Below, piece after piece: positions 11,685 through 20,087 of a stretch of DNA of 64,000 bases; the stretch's first letter is position 1, and each line of letters starts with the position of its first letter. The DNA comes from Rhodovulum tesquicola (GTDB lineage Bacteria > Pseudomonadota > Alphaproteobacteria > Rhodobacterales > Rhodobacteraceae). The translations under genes and the position numbers were made by a program. The stretch is from NCBI RefSeq assembly GCF_024128855.1, contig NZ_JAMYDV010000001.1:166972-230971 (forward strand), read 5' to 3'. The notes beneath the pieces are model-generated. The model had not been told where the DNA came from. It ran no database searches and saw only the letters and a program-made list of their open reading frames with translations.

Positions 11685-12599
11685 CTAGCCGAAGTCGCTG
11701 CCGCGCGCGGAACTCAGCGCGCCGCAAAGCCGGTCCAGATCGTCGAGACTGCGATAGCCGATCACCAGCCGCCCCGAGCCGTCGGCGGAATGCTCGATCG
11801 AGACCTTCATCCCCAGATTGGCCGACAGATCCTGTTCCAGCGCGCGGGTATCGGCATCCTTTTCCGCCGCCCCGCCCGCCTTGCGCGGCGCGCTGGGCGG
11901 ATCGGCCGTGCGCTTGGCCAGTTTCTCGGTCTCGCGCACCGACAGCCCGCCCGCGATGACCTCTTGCGCCAGCCGCACCGGGTTTTCGGTGGTGATCAGC
12001 GCCCGCGCATGGCCCGCGCTCATCCGCCCATGACGAACATGGTCCAGCACCTCTTCGGGCAGTTGCAGCAGCCGCAACAGGTTGGCGATATGGCTGCGGC
12101 TCTTGCCCAGCGCCTCGGCCACCTTGTCCTGGGTGTGGCCGAACCGGTCCATCAGTTGGCGATAGCCCATCGCCTCTTCGACCGCGTTCAGGTCGGCGCG
12201 CTGGATATTCTCGATGATCGCGATTTCCAGCACCTCGATATCGTCGAGGTCGCGCACGATCACCGGAACCTCGTGGGTCTGCGCCATCTGGCAGGCCCGC
12301 CAGCGGCGTTCGCCCGCCACGATCTCGAATCGCCCCTCGGTCCGCTTGCTGGGGCGGACGATGAGGGGCTGAATTACACCCTTCTCGCGAATCGAGGCGG
12401 CGAGCTCCTGCAACGCCTCGTCCGAGAATTGCCGCCGCGGCTGGTCCGGATTCGGTTCCAGCAGGTCGAGCGTCACGATCTGGTCGGGCTTGCCGCGCGG
12501 CGCCTCGCCCCGCTCCGGCACGGGGTCGATCTGCACATCCGCCATCAGCGCCGACAGACCCCGGCCGAGGCCCCGCTTGCCCGTGTTCTTCAGGGTCAT
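11685..12599 (-). CDS. parB: Chromosome partitioning protein ParB
   Basis: ParB binds parS, spreads as a CTP-gated clamp, and is moved by ParA. The protein of about 304 residues has the N-terminal GLGRGLSALM patch (ParA-interacting region), the CTP-binding motif GERRWRA at about 97-103, the helix-turn-helix HTQDKVAEALGKSRSHIANLLRLL, and a C-terminal dimer domain. A TTG at 12605 is open, but GGGAGA would abut it directly. The ATG at 12599 lies 6 bases after that ribosome site and is preferred. Two perfect parS sites lie 1.4 and 3.3 kb away. It is 16 bases downstream of parA. Confidence 0.96.
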   Translation of the reverse strand: MTLKNTGKRGLGRGLSALMADVQIDPVPERGEAPRGKPDQIVTLDLLEPNPDQPRRQFSDEALQELAASIREKGVIQPLIVRPSKRTEGRFEIVAGERRWRACQMAQTHEVPVIVRDLDDIEVLEIAIIENIQRADLNAVEEAMGYRQLMDRFGHTQDKVAEALGKSRSHIANLLRLLQLPEEVLDHVRHGRMSAGHARALITTENPVRLAQEVIAGGLSVRETEKLAKRTADPPSAPRKAGGAAEKDADTRALEQDLSANLGMKVSIEHSADGSGRLVIGYRSLDDLDRLCGALSSARGSDFG

Positions 12600-12615
12600 C
12601 GGCAATCTCCCAACA

Positions 12616-13425
12616 TCATGCGGTTACCGCTGGTTTAAACCCCAATATCTCGCGTGCCAAGGCCCGGTAGGCCTGCGCGCCCTTGGACATGGGATCGTAG
12701 CTCAACACCGGCATCGAAAACGATGGCGCTTCACTCACCCGCACGTTCCGCGGAATCACGGTCTGGAATACCAGATCCCCCAGATAGGCCCGCGCGTCAT
12801 TCTCGACCTGCTGGGACAGGTTGTTGCGGCGGTCGGTCATTGTCATCACGACCCCCTCGATTCGCAGCGAGGGATTCGCGGTCTGGCGCAGCTCGCGAAT
12901 CGTCAGCATGAGTTGCGACAGCCCCTCGAGCGCGAAGAACTCGCTTTGCAGCGGCACCAGAACCGAATGCGCGGCAACCATCGCGTTCACCGTCAGCAGG
13001 TTCAGCGAGGGCGGGCAATCGATCAGCACGAAATCCAACCCATAGGCGTCGATCGCGGGCTGGCGCAACGCGTCATGCAGCAGGAAACTGCGCTTTTCAT
13101 TCGCGACCATCTCGATATCGGCCGAGCTGAGATCGGTGGTTCCGGGCGCGATCAACAGGCCGTCGATCTCGGTCTTCACCACGATCTGATCCAGCGGTGC
13201 CTCTTCCAGCAGCAGGTCATAGGTGGTGCGCGCGCGCTGTCCGGCCTCGATCCCCAGCCCGGTCGAGGCGTTGCCCTGCGGGTCGATATCGACGATCAGC
13301 GCCTTGCGGCCCTCTTCGACCAGCGCGGCGGCCAGGTTGATCGCGGTCGTGGTCTTGCCGACGCCGCCCTTCTGGTTGGCCACGGCAATGATCTTCGGGC
13401 CTTTGGGACGCGTCGGATCAGACAC
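12616..13425 (-). CDS. parA: Chromosome partitioning ATPase ParA
   Basis: It is the Walker-type ATPase that drives ParB-parS complexes. At 269 residues it shows the deviant Walker A motif KGGVGKTTTAINLAAAL at about residue 19, the ALIVDIDPQGNASTG segment, and FVLIDCPPSLNLLTVNA. Its start overlaps the 3' end of rsmG by 8 bases and parB follows, matching the conserved order rsmG-parA-parB beside alphaproteobacterial origins. Confidence 0.97.
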   Translation of the reverse strand: MSDPTRPKGPKIIAVANQKGGVGKTTTAINLAAALVEEGRKALIVDIDPQGNASTGLGIEAGQRARTTYDLLLEEAPLDQIVVKTEIDGLLIAPGTTDLSSADIEMVANEKRSFLLHDALRQPAIDAYGLDFVLIDCPPSLNLLTVNAMVAAHSVLVPLQSEFFALEGLSQLMLTIRELRQTANPSLRIEGVVMTMTDRRNNLSQQVENDARAYLGDLVFQTVIPRNVRVSEAPSFSMPVLSYDPMSKGAQAYRALAREILGFKPAVTA

Positions 13426-14038
13426 GGGCGATGCCTCCGATTTTCAGGATGACGGCCTGGGGGTCGGTCGTGCTGGGGATCTTCTGAACTTCGAACCGCC
13501 AGGATACAAGCGCCTCGTCCAGTTCTTCGTCATGGCGCGCGCCTTTGGGAAAAAGCGCGATCCCGCCATGCGCCAGATGCCGGTCGGCAAAGTCCAGAAG
13601 CTGGCTCAACGGCGCCAGGGCGCGTGCCGAGATCACGTCCGCCTGTCGCGATGGCACGGTCTCGATCCGGCTTGCGAAAACGGTCACATTATCAAGACCA
13701 AGCTCCTGCGCCGCCGTCCGCAGGAACACGGCCTTGCGCTGATCGCTTTCGATCAGGTCAACCGCCAGATCCGGCGCGCCTTGGGCGGCGAGGATCGCGA
13801 TGACCAGGCCGGGAAAGCCGCCGCCGCTGCCCAAGTCGGTCCAGCGTCGTGCGCCATTCGGTAAATGTCCGAAAAGCTGCGCGGAATCAACGATATGTCG
13901 GATTTCCAGAACGTCGAGCGTTGCGCGCGAAACCAGGTTGATCGCCGGGTTCCACTTCCGCAGCAGAGCAGCAAGGTGGTCAAGCCGGTCCGATGTTTCA
14001 CGTGAAACATCGGAAATCCCCCCGGGCGACGCCATCAT
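13418..14038 (-). CDS. rsmG: 16S rRNA (guanine527-N7)-methyltransferase RsmG (GidB)
   Basis: It methylates G527 of 16S rRNA using SAM. The 206 residues contain the SAM-binding loop [17 protein letters not shown] and [26 protein letters not shown]. Its ATG at 14038 overlaps the mnmG stop as ATGA. A second ATG follows at once. Codons for residues D10-S16 (DVSRETS) are formed by a perfect parS palindrome, so the N-terminus is shaped by a DNA site. Confidence 0.95.
13991..14012. promoter_or_regulatory. parS centromere site 1 (inside rsmG)
   Basis: The 16-base parS consensus TGTTTCACGTGAAACA is present without mismatch at 13994-14009, extended by CGA/TCG to a perfect 22-base palindrome. It lies in the rsmG coding region, in the frame that reads VSRET, about 5.3 kb from the candidate origin and 0.6 kb from parA. 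ParB binding here is inferred from the consensus. Confidence 0.93.
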
Positions 14039-15900
14039 GCCGAGCGCCGGTCGATCTGCCGCAACCGGGCAAGGATCAGCGTCAGGGCGGCCGGTGTCAT
14101 CCCCTCGAGTCGCGCCGCCTGCGCCAGGGTTTCCGGTTGGGCCGCCATCAACTTGCCCTTCAACTCGTTCGACAACCCGTCGATCCGGTCATAGGGGAAA
14201 TCATTCGGCAAGGCATGCGCCTCGTCGCGCCGCATCGCCTGCACGTCCTGTTCCTGACGGCGGATGTAATTCGCATAAAGCGCGTCCCGCTCCAGCTGGG
14301 CCGCAACCTCTGCATCCACCGCTGCAAGGGATGGGTCCAGCGCCAGGAGATCCGCAAAGCGGACGTCAGGAAAGGCCAGCAGGTCGAAGCCGCTGCGCCG
14401 GTTTCCATCGGCATTCACCCTGATTCCGGCCGCCGATATCTCGCGCGGCGTGAGCGACATGGCGTCCAATTGTCCCCGCACCCGCGCCATCCGCTCCATC
14501 TTGTCAGCAAAGACCTGCGCGCGCTCTTCCCCGATGCACCCCAGTTCCAGACCCAGCGGGGTCAGCCGCTGATCGGCATTGTCGGCCCGCAAGGACAGCC
14601 GGAACTCGGCCCGCGAGGTGAACATCCGGTAGGGTTCGCTGACGCCGCGGGTCACGAGATCGTCGATCATCACGCCGATATAGCTGCTTGTCCGGGTGAA
14701 TTGCGCCGGGCCCTCGCCCCGCACATGGCGCGCAGCATTCAGCCCCGCGACCAGCCCCTGCGCCGCGGCCTCTTCATAGCCCGTGGTGCCGTTGATCTGC
14801 CCGGCAAGATACAGCCCCGGCACGTCGCGCAATTCCAGCGTGCTGCGCAGCGCGCGGGGATCGACATAATCATACTCGATCGCGTAACCGGGTTGCAGGA
14901 TCACCGCGTTCTCAAGCCCGGCGATGGAGCGGACATAGGCCTGCTGCACCTCTTCGGGGAGCGAGGTCGAGATACCGTTGGGATAGACGGTCGGATCGTC
15001 CAGCCCCTCGGGTTCGAGGAAGATCTGATGCGAGTCCTTCTCGGCGAACCGCACGATCTTGTCCTCGATCGAGGGGCAATAGCGCGGCCCGACCCCTTCG
15101 ATATGCCCCCCATACATCGCCGAGCGCGACAGGTTCTGCCGGATGATCTCATGCGTTTGCGCATTGGTGTGGGTGATACCGCAGGAGACTTGCGGCAGGC
15201 GCAGCTCTTTGGAAAGAAAAGAGAAAAGCACCGGCTCTTGGTCGCCGGGCTGACCCTCCAGACGATCCCAGTCAATCGTGCGGCCATCCAGGCGCGGCGG
15301 CGTGCCCGTCTTGAGCCGACCCAGCGGCAGGCCGAAACTGTCGATCCTTTCGGCCAATGGCACGGATGGACGGTCGCCCATCCGACCGCCCGGGACCTGC
15401 CGGTCGCCGATATGGATAACTCCGCGCAGGAAAGTGCCTGTGGTCAGAACGACCGCGCCCGCGGCGATCTCCGCCCCATCCGCAAGGCGGAGACCGACGA
15501 TCCGCCCGGCGGCTTCGATCAGGTCCGCAACCTCCGCCTCGAGAATCGTCAGGTTCGGCACGGCGGACAGCGCCGCCTGAACGGCCTCGCGATAGGCCCG
15601 CCGGTCAGCCTGGGCGCGTGGCCCCTGCACGGCCGGCCCCTTGCGGCGGTTCAACAGACGGAACTGGATGCCCGCGCGATCCGCGGCCTGTCCCATGATT
15701 CCGTCCAGCGCATCGACCTCGCGCACCAGATGGCCCTTGCCCAGCCCGCCGATCGCCGGATTGCAGGACATCACGCCAATCGCGTCGCGGCGCAGCGTGA
15801 TCAGCGCGACCCGGACGCCAAGGCGCGCGGCGGCATGGGCGGCCTCGGCCCCGGCATGACCGCCCCCCACGACAACGACATCGAAGTCGCAATGTTTCAC
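14035..15900 (-). CDS. mnmG: tRNA U34 carboxymethylaminomethyl synthesis FAD enzyme MnmG (GidA)
   Basis: With MnmE it builds the cmnm5 group on wobble U34. The protein of about 621 residues begins with the FAD-binding loop [22 protein letters not shown] and has [38 protein letters not shown] and [14 protein letters not shown] at 15909 would give [10 protein letters not shown], but GAGGAG at 15909-15914 is 8 bases from a GTG at 15900, giving [14 protein letters not shown] as in relatives. The 8-base spacer is the first half of a parS palindrome. The mnmE stop overlaps the ribosome site. Confidence 0.95.
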
Positions 15901-15908
15901 GTGAAACA
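15893..15908. promoter_or_regulatory. parS centromere site 2 (at the mnmG start)
   Basis: A second exact TGTTTCACGTGAAACA. Its first half, read on the minus strand, is the spacer between the mnmG ribosome site and start, and the GTG start codon is the first three bases of the second half. It sits 5 bases past the mnmE stop and about 3.4 kb from the candidate origin. Confidence 0.93.
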
Positions 15909-18611: not shown

Positions 18612-19061
18612 TCAGAATTTCAGGACCACCGCGAAGACGATCACGAGCATCAGAAGCGTCGGCACCTCGTTCATCATCCGGTAGCTGCGCCCGGTGCGCG
18701 TGTTGGTGCCCGCGAGGAATTCCTTGCGCCGCAGGCCCAGCCACATGTGGAACCAGGTCATCCCGATCACTGCCGCGCCCTTGGCATAGGGCCAGACCGA
18801 TCCCCAGTCGACGATGCCGGGCGTAAAGACCAGCGCAAGGCCGAACACCCAGACCAGGATGATCGAGGGATTCATGATGTAGCGGTAGAGCTTCATCTCC
18901 ATGACCTTGAAAACCTCGTCGGTCTCGCTGCCCACGGCTGCGCGTTCGACGTGATAGACGAAGATCCGGGGCAGGTAGAAAAGGCCGGCCATCCAGGTCA
19001 GCACCACGATGATGTGCAGCGACTTGGTCCAGGGATAGTAGGACGCCAGGAACTCGGCCAT
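18612..19061 (-). CDS. hemJ: Protoporphyrinogen IX oxidase HemJ
   Basis: HemJ is the membrane-bound, oxygen-independent-type oxidase of the penultimate heme step in many alphaproteobacteria. The 149 residues form about four membrane helices. His16 in [27 protein letters not shown], the segment [17 protein letters not shown] and [19 protein letters not shown] fit the family. It is the last gene before the candidate replication origin, the position that hemE occupies in Caulobacter. Confidence 0.93.
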
Positions 19062-19240
19062 TCTCTCACTCCAGCGCAGGATCCGATCGGGCCCCTTCTA
19101 AGGGAATAAGGAAAGAAAAGAAAAGATGATGTTTCTGTAGGGGCTGTGGGTTGTGGGGATTACCGATCCCTCCCCGACTCTGTCCACAGGGACACGGATG
19201 TTGAAAAGCGTGTTGGTATCTTCGGGACATCGGGGAGACA

Positions 19241-19285
19241 TGATAAAAACCAATCTTTAACAATACTTTAGATATAGTTAATCCG
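19241..19285. other. AT-rich segment, possible DNA-unwinding element
   Basis: 34 of 45 bases are A or T, unlike the GC-rich surroundings, and it sits inside the candidate origin. It contains TTAACAATACTTTAG, one base away from the CtrA full site TTAA-N7-TTAA. The unwinding role is inferred from composition and position only. Confidence 0.5.
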
Positions 19286-19352
19286 ATACGGATCTGTGGA
19301 TGTCGGGGGATTGTTCCGGTCGGGGCGAGTCCCTCACAGGACCGGGATGCGA

Positions 19353-19369
19353 CGATCCACCGTGGATCG
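19353..19369. repeat. Inverted repeat CGATCCAC-C-GTGGATCG in the origin region
   Basis: Two perfect 8-base arms flank a single central base. The arm core GTGGAT also occurs in GATCTGTGGATG at 19291-19302. It may be a protein-binding site of the origin or of the maf promoter. No T-run follows, so it is not a terminator. Confidence 0.6.
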
Positions 19370-19462
19370 ACAGGGCCCTTGGCTTGACTTTTTCCCGACC
19401 GACCGGCACCTCGGAGGCTCTGGGGCGGCTTGTTCCATCACATGCGAAAACCGTTCCTACGC

Positions 19463-19471
19463 TTTTCCACA
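19463..19471 (+). promoter_or_regulatory. DnaA box TTTTCCACA
   Basis: It matches the TTWTNCACA consensus exactly and lies 14 bases before the maf start codon at the right edge of the candidate origin. DnaA bound here could affect both initiation and maf transcription (inference). Confidence 0.6.
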
Positions 19472-19484
19472 GGGTTCTACCGAG

Positions 19485-20087
19485 ATGTCCGAACGCGTGA
19501 TCCTTGCTTCCGGCTCGCCGATCCGGCGACAGCTTCTCGAACGGGCAGGTCTGGTGTTCGAGGCCATGCCGGTTGCCGTCGACGAGGCCGCGATCCGCGA
19601 CGGTCTGGAGGCCGAGGGCGCCGCCCCCGCCGAGATCGCCGAGACGCTGGCCGCCTTCAAGGCCGAACGCGCCGCGGCCAAGGCACCCGAGGCGCTGGTG
19701 ATCGGCTGTGATCAGATTCTGGCCCATCGCGGCCGGGTCCTGGGCAAGCCCGCCTCGATGGACGAGGCGCGCGCGCAATTGCGGGCCTTGCGGGGAGCCC
19801 CCCCGCATGAATTGCTGTCGGCCGTCGTCGTCTATGACGACCTCAAGCCGCTCTGGCGCCATGTCGGCCGGGTCAAGCTGACCATGCGCCCCTTCTCGGA
19901 CGCTTACCTGGAGGACTATCTGAACCGCAACTGGCATGGCGTGCGTGACGCAGTCGGCGCCTACAAGATCGAGGAAGAGGGGATCCGGCTGTTCTCGCGC
20001 ATCGAAGGGGACTATTTCGACATCCTGGGGTTGCCCCTTCTGCCGCTTCTGACCTTTCTGACCACGCGCGGAGCGTTGATGGCATGA
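19485..20087 (+). CDS. maf: Maf-type nucleoside triphosphate pyrophosphatase
   Basis: It hydrolyses abnormal or selected nucleoside triphosphates. The 200-residue protein has the Maf N-terminus VILASGSPIRRQLLERAGL, LVIGCDQILAHRGRVLGKP, and GVRDAVGAYKIEEEGIRLFSRIEGDYFDILGLPLLPL. The open frame continues upstream through the origin to 19296, but that stretch shows no protein character, so ATG 19485 is used. It overlaps aroE by 4 bases and begins the rightward operon maf-aroE-coaE-dnaQ. Confidence 0.94.
   Translation: MSERVILASGSPIRRQLLERAGLVFEAMPVAVDEAAIRDGLEAEGAAPAEIAETLAAFKAERAAAKAPEALVIGCDQILAHRGRVLGKPASMDEARAQLRALRGAPPHELLSAVVVYDDLKPLWRHVGRVKLTMRPFSDAYLEDYLNRNWHGVRDAVGAYKIEEEGIRLFSRIEGDYFDILGLPLLPLLTFLTTRGALMA

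Follow-up and report, generated by a model that had tools for sequence, protein, structure and literature searches.

A candidate chromosomal replication origin in the hemJ-maf interval of Rhodovulum tesquicola and a reversed strand asymmetry in its surroundings

Introduction

Among described replication origins, the closest points of reference for the locus considered here are Cori of Caulobacter crescentus and the predicted origins of the Rhodobacteraceae. The gene order around Cori is hemE, the origin gap, and a Kinase-PPPase (COG1806) gene, and the cited account places five CtrA sites in it (PMC1914354). Within the Rhodobacteraceae, the predicted oriC of Ketogulonicigenium vulgare Hbe602 is described as adjoining maf, an adjacency that DoriC shows to be conserved in the family (PMC4793288), and oriC has been assigned in 101 chromosomes on the basis of DnaA boxes, skew, and parAB (PMC6699656). 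The parAB genes are reported to be close to ori in nearly all genomes; Rhodobacterales are represented among the exceptions (PMC8116508). Among the matches listed in literature searches, several of them limited to the best 12 to 20 of more, no title named an experimental origin map for Rhodovulum.

Here we describe the interval between hemJ and maf of Rhodovulum tesquicola, which, judging from its sequence and that of its relatives, is very likely the chromosomal oriC. It resembles Cori in its length of about 400 bp, its DnaA boxes, its IHF-like site, and its A+T-rich part; unlike Cori as described, it is not flanked by hemE and the COG1806 gene and has no convincing conserved CtrA sites (PMC1914354). 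With the predicted oriCs of Rhodobacteraceae it shares the maf neighbor and DnaA boxes (PMC4793288); boxes, skew, and parAB proximity, which we also examine, were the criteria used in PMC6699656. Those predictions come from closed genomes by way of DoriC or Ori-Finder, whereas the present case involves a draft genome, a comparison at the level of modules, and a lineage whose local skew is reversed. A maf-adjacent oriC is already known as a kind (PMC4793288), and the site described here is a further species of it.

Genomic context of the interval

The window, that is, the whole 64-kb stretch of DNA that was analyzed, is G000:C1:166972-230971 of a 3.52-Mb draft assembly in 80 contigs. The features that define the locus are as follows, in window coordinates.

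11685 to 12605, minus strand: parB, reaching the curated family cut-off
12616 to 13425, minus strand: parA, under the cut-offs of the listed families
13994 to 14009, no strand: exact parS, inside the opening 15 codons of rsmG
15893 to 15908, no strand: exact parS, among the first codons of mnmG
18612 to 19061, minus strand: hemJ, the left flank, from its ORF and family profile score
19062 to 19484, no strand: candidate chromosomal oriC, the hemJ-maf intergenic interval, 423 bp, 46% A+T versus 32% A+T in the window
19485 to 20087, plus strand: maf, the right flank; aroE, coaE, and dnaQ come next (dnaQ by eye)

The sequence-only reading of this DNA had proposed a gene-free gap of 423 bp between hemJ and maf, and the gene starts (19061 on the minus strand and 19485 on the plus strand) bear this out; the intruding ORFs of at least 90 aa, the size covered by our check, are either extended readings of maf or antisense. 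The gene blocks that it named on either side stand at curated family cut-offs for parB, rsmG, mnmG, mnmE, rho, aroE, and coaE. The identification is less firm for ParA, HemJ, and Maf, which give clear E-values but scores under the family cut-offs (133.1 versus 138.05 for HemJ; 204.5 versus 269 and 116 versus 117.15 for Maf), and the names dnaQ and secB were assigned by eye. Both of the exact parS sites that it had placed within 6 kb are present, 3 and 5 kb from the gap, and they are the only sites within two mismatches in this genome. A parS pair about 1.9 kb apart recurs in 16 of 16 genus genomes (this one included), with one or both sites carrying one mismatch in G001, G002, and G011 and an extra two-mismatch site in G002, G006, and G014. 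Each site falls among the first codons of a gene, rsmG or mnmG, and this placement may account for their constant spacing. The interval thus has the position typical of the maf-adjacent origins of Rhodobacteraceae, directly upstream of maf and near parAB and parS.

We searched 121 genomes of the order Rhodobacterales for this arrangement of genes. Leaving aside the 29 with only a weak hemJ match, hemJ and maf were found to diverge across 392 to 539 bp in 85 of the remaining 92. Six of the other seven lack a strong match to this maf; the seventh, G125, has a 2.3-kb gap. The G125 locus (G125:C33; L083 and L041) reads hemE, a box-bearing interval, a Kinase-PPPase (COG1806) gene, and then maf, with hemJ and rho outside. 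Because this arrangement contains the hemE-gap-COG1806 order seen around Cori, the hemJ-maf gap looks like the positional counterpart of Cori, and comparison with Caulobacter and Rickettsia suggests that the G125 order may be the older of the two. The proposal that hemJ here takes the place of hemE fits G125, where hemE lies between hemJ and the gap. The flanks in our genome are hemJ and maf rather than the hemE and COG1806 genes of the Cori class, and hemE is found on contig C16. In six maf loci from genomes lacking a strong hemJ match, rho takes the flanking place, and the gap keeps between one and four boxes with at most one mismatch.

Anatomy of the interval and enrichment of DnaA boxes

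The interval holds the following elements; mismatches of the IHF-like site were counted against WATCAANNNNTTR, which we take to be the IHF consensus.

19112 to 19131, plus strand: A/G-rich tract AAAGAAAAGAAAAGATGATG, one of the parts of the interval best conserved in the genus, its outline kept in the family; a possible unwinding element
19145 to 19153, minus strand: DnaA-box-like site 1, CAACCCACA, three mismatches
19154 to 19162, minus strand: DnaA-box-like site 2, TAATCCCCA, two mismatches, TAATCCACA in several congeners; abuts site 1
19180 to 19188, plus strand: DnaA-box-like site 3, CTGTCCACA, two mismatches
19199 to 19207, minus strand: DnaA-box-like site 4, TTTTCAACA, two mismatches
19238 to 19282, no strand: segment with 80% A+T, higher than in any other 45 bp of the window; a candidate unwinding region
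19258 to 19270, plus strand: IHF-like site, one mismatch; overlaps near-CtrA sites at 19257 to 19271 and 19267 to 19281
19295 to 19303, minus strand: DnaA-box-like site 5, ACATCCACA, two mismatches; several congeners have TTATCCACA at the same place
19327 to 19331, no strand: GANTC (CcrM-type) site, its position kept in 13 of the 15 genus intervals, this one included
19354 to 19368, no strand: palindrome GATCCACCGTGGATC, two half boxes back to back
19384 to 19389, plus strand: TTGACT, conserved as TTGAC in the genus alignment; probably the -35 element of the maf promoter
19463 to 19471, plus strand: DnaA box 6, TTTTCCACA, one mismatch, the best match in the interval

The 15 aligned genus intervals share the order of these modules. 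From the left, an A/G tract with GATGATG at its end comes first, then a pair of abutting boxes, a third box, repeats resembling TGTTGA, and an A+T-rich stretch that contains the IHF-like site; these are followed by the box at 19295, GANTC, the half-box palindrome, TTGAC, and a last box before maf. One genus genome, G004, had no match to the interval and was left out of this set. For the family, 60 loci yielded 52 intervals, which came to 40 from other genera once identical sequences were counted a single time, for a total of 55 distinct intervals with those of the genus; in other family members, the interval measures 376 to 509 bp. The inverted repeat that had been noted earlier is the palindrome GATCCACCGTGGATC, and the 45-base A+T-rich segment proved stronger than the 76% first given for it.

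Of the 55 distinct intervals, 40 have an A/G tract with GATGAT, or something close to it, at the corresponding place (43 matches, less L024, L031, and L052, where the match falls outside the A-rich position). In the relatives L027, L035, and L079, the GAT unit next to the abutting boxes is present in four or five copies. The arrangement recalls the basal unwinding system (BUS) as described (PMC8287927), with tandem boxes, a short spacer, and A-containing trinucleotides on the fitting strand, a likeness judged by eye on a relaxed (.A.) pattern. Such a pattern is easily matched by A-rich tracts, and it was on this pattern, again by eye, that the BUS definition (a DnaA box, a spacer of at most 16 bp, and at least three DnaA-trios) was applied. 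The DnaA-trio consensus of the BUS is 3'-[G/A]A[T/A]-5', whereas the repeat here is 3'-TAG-5' and departs from the canonical polarity. It is possible that the GAT-repeat tract is a DnaA-trio variant. When the A/G tract and box pair were searched for as a single pattern among 289 genomes of the class, this genome alone was matched, three others of those searched being of the same family; for this reason we judge the pattern narrow as written.

The box TTTTCCACA, which the sequence-only reading had called perfect, fits TTWTNCACA but differs from TTATCCACA at one position. A single match of this kind carries little weight: TTWTNCACA occurs once in the 64 kb with 0.39 expected, which is not rare alone, and the interval has one 9-mer with no more than one mismatch to TTATCCACA, against 0.07 expected (P 0.068). 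It is the cluster that stands out, with five 9-mers of at most two mismatches in the interval against 0.94 in shuffles, a number reached by none of 1,000 shuffles. Boxes with at most one mismatch number 40 against 1.44 expected in the 15 genus intervals (own included) and 97 against 4.92 in the 40 distinct intervals from other genera of the family (100 shuffles each), although these intervals are kin and the counts are not independent events. The boxes sit at conserved offsets in both sets. Thus, a DnaA-box cluster above chance is seen in our interval, the 15 of the genus, and the 40 of the family, and the A+T-rich element expected of an oriC is represented, on composition only, by the 80% A+T over 45 bp.

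The candidate also exceeds all other 430-bp windows sampled in box score: 6 versus 4 on our contig C1 (400 kb sampled), 15 versus 6 in G014 (800 kb, with some overlap), and, in 400 kb each, 15 versus 6 in G008, 8 versus 6 in G009, and 8 versus below 4 in G011, the gap sequences of the last three coming from a separate interval match outside the samples. The score of our own interval is modest, 6 compared with 15 in G014, G008, and G006.

Other motifs contribute unevenly. Both GANTC sites that had been noted are present, one of them at the conserved position given above, but their number is under the shuffle mean of 2.89, and we dropped the count, which is at chance, as support for an origin. 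The near-CtrA site noted earlier turns out to be two overlapping one-mismatch sites (19257 and 19267; P 0.005); the excess is not clear in the genus (5 versus 1.83, P 0.07), and the family has 21 versus 12.9 near sites (P 0.02) and 3 versus 0.69 exact ones (P 0.03), so that CtrA sites lend mixed support to an origin. The one-mismatch IHF-like site here has a P of 0.17; exact IHF sites number two across the genus intervals (P 0.03) and seven in the family set against 1.22 expected (0 of 100 shuffles).

That the flanking genes diverge and that TTGAC is conserved ahead of maf would suit a reading of the interval as a divergent hemJ/maf promoter region, with DnaA- and IHF-regulated promoters and no origin. 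This is scarcely credible in the face of the box enrichment and near-constant length across the family, the survival of gap and boxes through a change of flanks (hemE/COG1806 in G125 and rho/maf in six loci), and the sampled chromosome-wide skew of four congeners, which centers on the gap.

GC skew in congeners and the position of dnaA

Skew was sampled in 20 stretches of 20 kb in each of four near-complete congeners, G011, G008, G014, and G009, some of which contain runs of N (2,500 bases in G011 and 5,000 in G014). In all four, the best-fit range for the origin includes the candidate, whose score equals the highest reached at any position (P 0.002 by permutation in G011; 0 of 2,000 permutations in each of the others). 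Cumulative GC skew, suggested earlier as a check, fits the candidate at the chromosome scale in these congeners but fails locally on our own contig C1. A contiguous 400 kb of G014 places the skew minimum within 20 kb of the candidate, with the right side nearly flat; in G011, skew remains negative 22 to 42 kb to the right, and the dip lies further to the maf side, before +209 kb. Counts of the G-rich GGGNAGGG, the KOPS motif of Escherichia coli, agree with the skew in the congeners; as they share its composition, the two measures are not independent. The recA gene is on contig C2 in our genome and 0.28 to 0.45 of the chromosome away from the candidate in the four congeners. It is reported to lie near ter in Dinoroseobacter shibae (PMC7901474), and its position is compatible with the candidate origin, if weakly so.

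On our contig C1 (where dnaA is at G000:C1:257675-258997) and in G011, dnaA lies about 72 and 75 kb, respectively, to the maf side, where the local skew dip shifts; this would favor an origin beside dnaA, the hemJ-maf interval being merely a par-proximal gap. Elsewhere the distance from the candidate to dnaA is 369 kb in G014 and 112 kb in G003, in both toward par, and 233 kb in G009, toward maf; in G008 it would be 369 kb, again toward maf, if the main contig of that genome is circular. The skew signs sampled between dnaA and the candidate do not fit an origin at dnaA in these four genomes, and we rejected it there. The sampled part of C1 has no window scoring at least 4 near dnaA, and the eight best windows of G014 are all away from it. 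We therefore consider an origin beside dnaA highly improbable. Within this one genus, where dnaA shares a contig with the parS/origin locus, the two are separated by about 64 to 369 kb, with dnaA to one side or the other.

Reversed local strand asymmetry

Our contig C1, sampled in 20 stretches (400 of 537 kb), shows a cumulative skew peak near the candidate and a dip near 375 kb. The replication term at fourfold sites, with genes called by a simple GC3 rule, is +0.11 at 120 to 180 kb and -0.11 at 180 to 240 kb, the opposite of an origin. An artifact of gene orientation was discarded as the cause, since the reversal persists after the fourfold sites are split by coding strand. The shared genes more than 10 kb out give +0.11 on the left and -0.12 on the right, as against -0.01 and +0.07 in G014. 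Those of G012 match our genome (+0.13 on the left, from few genes, and -0.15 on the right), although its whole left 20-kb stretch has a skew near zero. Within 10 kb, the left side of our genome has the normal sign (-0.045 and -0.064 in two gene sets) and the right side is weakly negative (-0.02 to -0.03). The maf side from about +10 to +42 kb is also negative in G013, G003, G007, and G011, and in the first three of these the left side is normal. An inversion of the near flanks was likewise rejected: relative to G014, the blocks spanning about -50 to +34 kb keep their order and strand, and rearrangements lie further out.

The reversed asymmetry lowers our confidence in the origin call. One conjecture, unlikely as it is, holds that in the Rhodovulum steppense lineage the asymmetry around a conserved oriC-parS locus has been turned on both sides across unrearranged genes, either by converging forks from a moved or second origin or by a reversed leading-strand mutation bias. 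Either, if true, would violate the rule by which skew indicates the origin. As a rival to the hemJ-maf origin in that group (this genome and G012), the corresponding claim would be that initiation has moved off the conserved locus or that the nearby leading-strand bias has reversed. It draws on the reversal on both sides beyond 10 kb in genes that are collinear and same-strand with those of G014, and on the weak boxes of our interval; it is very unlikely when set against the modules kept in the interval, its rank as the top box cluster of the sampled C1, the parS that remains beside it, and the normal skew sign within 10 kb to the left.

A model for initiation at the hemJ-maf interval

An origin at hemJ-maf, as first proposed by the sequence-only reading, is backed by the anatomy of the interval, its conservation, the clustering and enrichment of boxes, the adjacent parS, and the sampled chromosome-wide skew in four congeners. 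By analogy with known systems, DnaA would bind the ordered boxes, namely the abutting pair by the A/G tract, the one at 19180, the one at 19295, and the one next to maf, while the IHF-like site may help to fold the interval. The A+T-rich and A/G-rich stretches would then melt, and two forks would depart, one to the left through hemJ-rho-parAB and the other to the right through maf-aroE. ParB would load on the two parS sites 3 to 5 kb to the left and segregate the new origins.

General considerations

In this reading, the origin of a draft genome is narrowed to 423 bp. Its position would tie the site to Cori of Caulobacter across a series in which the flanks vary (hemE/COG1806, hemJ/maf, and rho/maf) and the boxed gap is constant. 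Since the flanks vary while the boxed gap stays, single gene neighbors would be weak guides to alphaproteobacterial origins and the layout of boxes a better one. The reversed local skew in the lineage provides a cheap test case for distinguishing a moved origin from a changed mutation bias.
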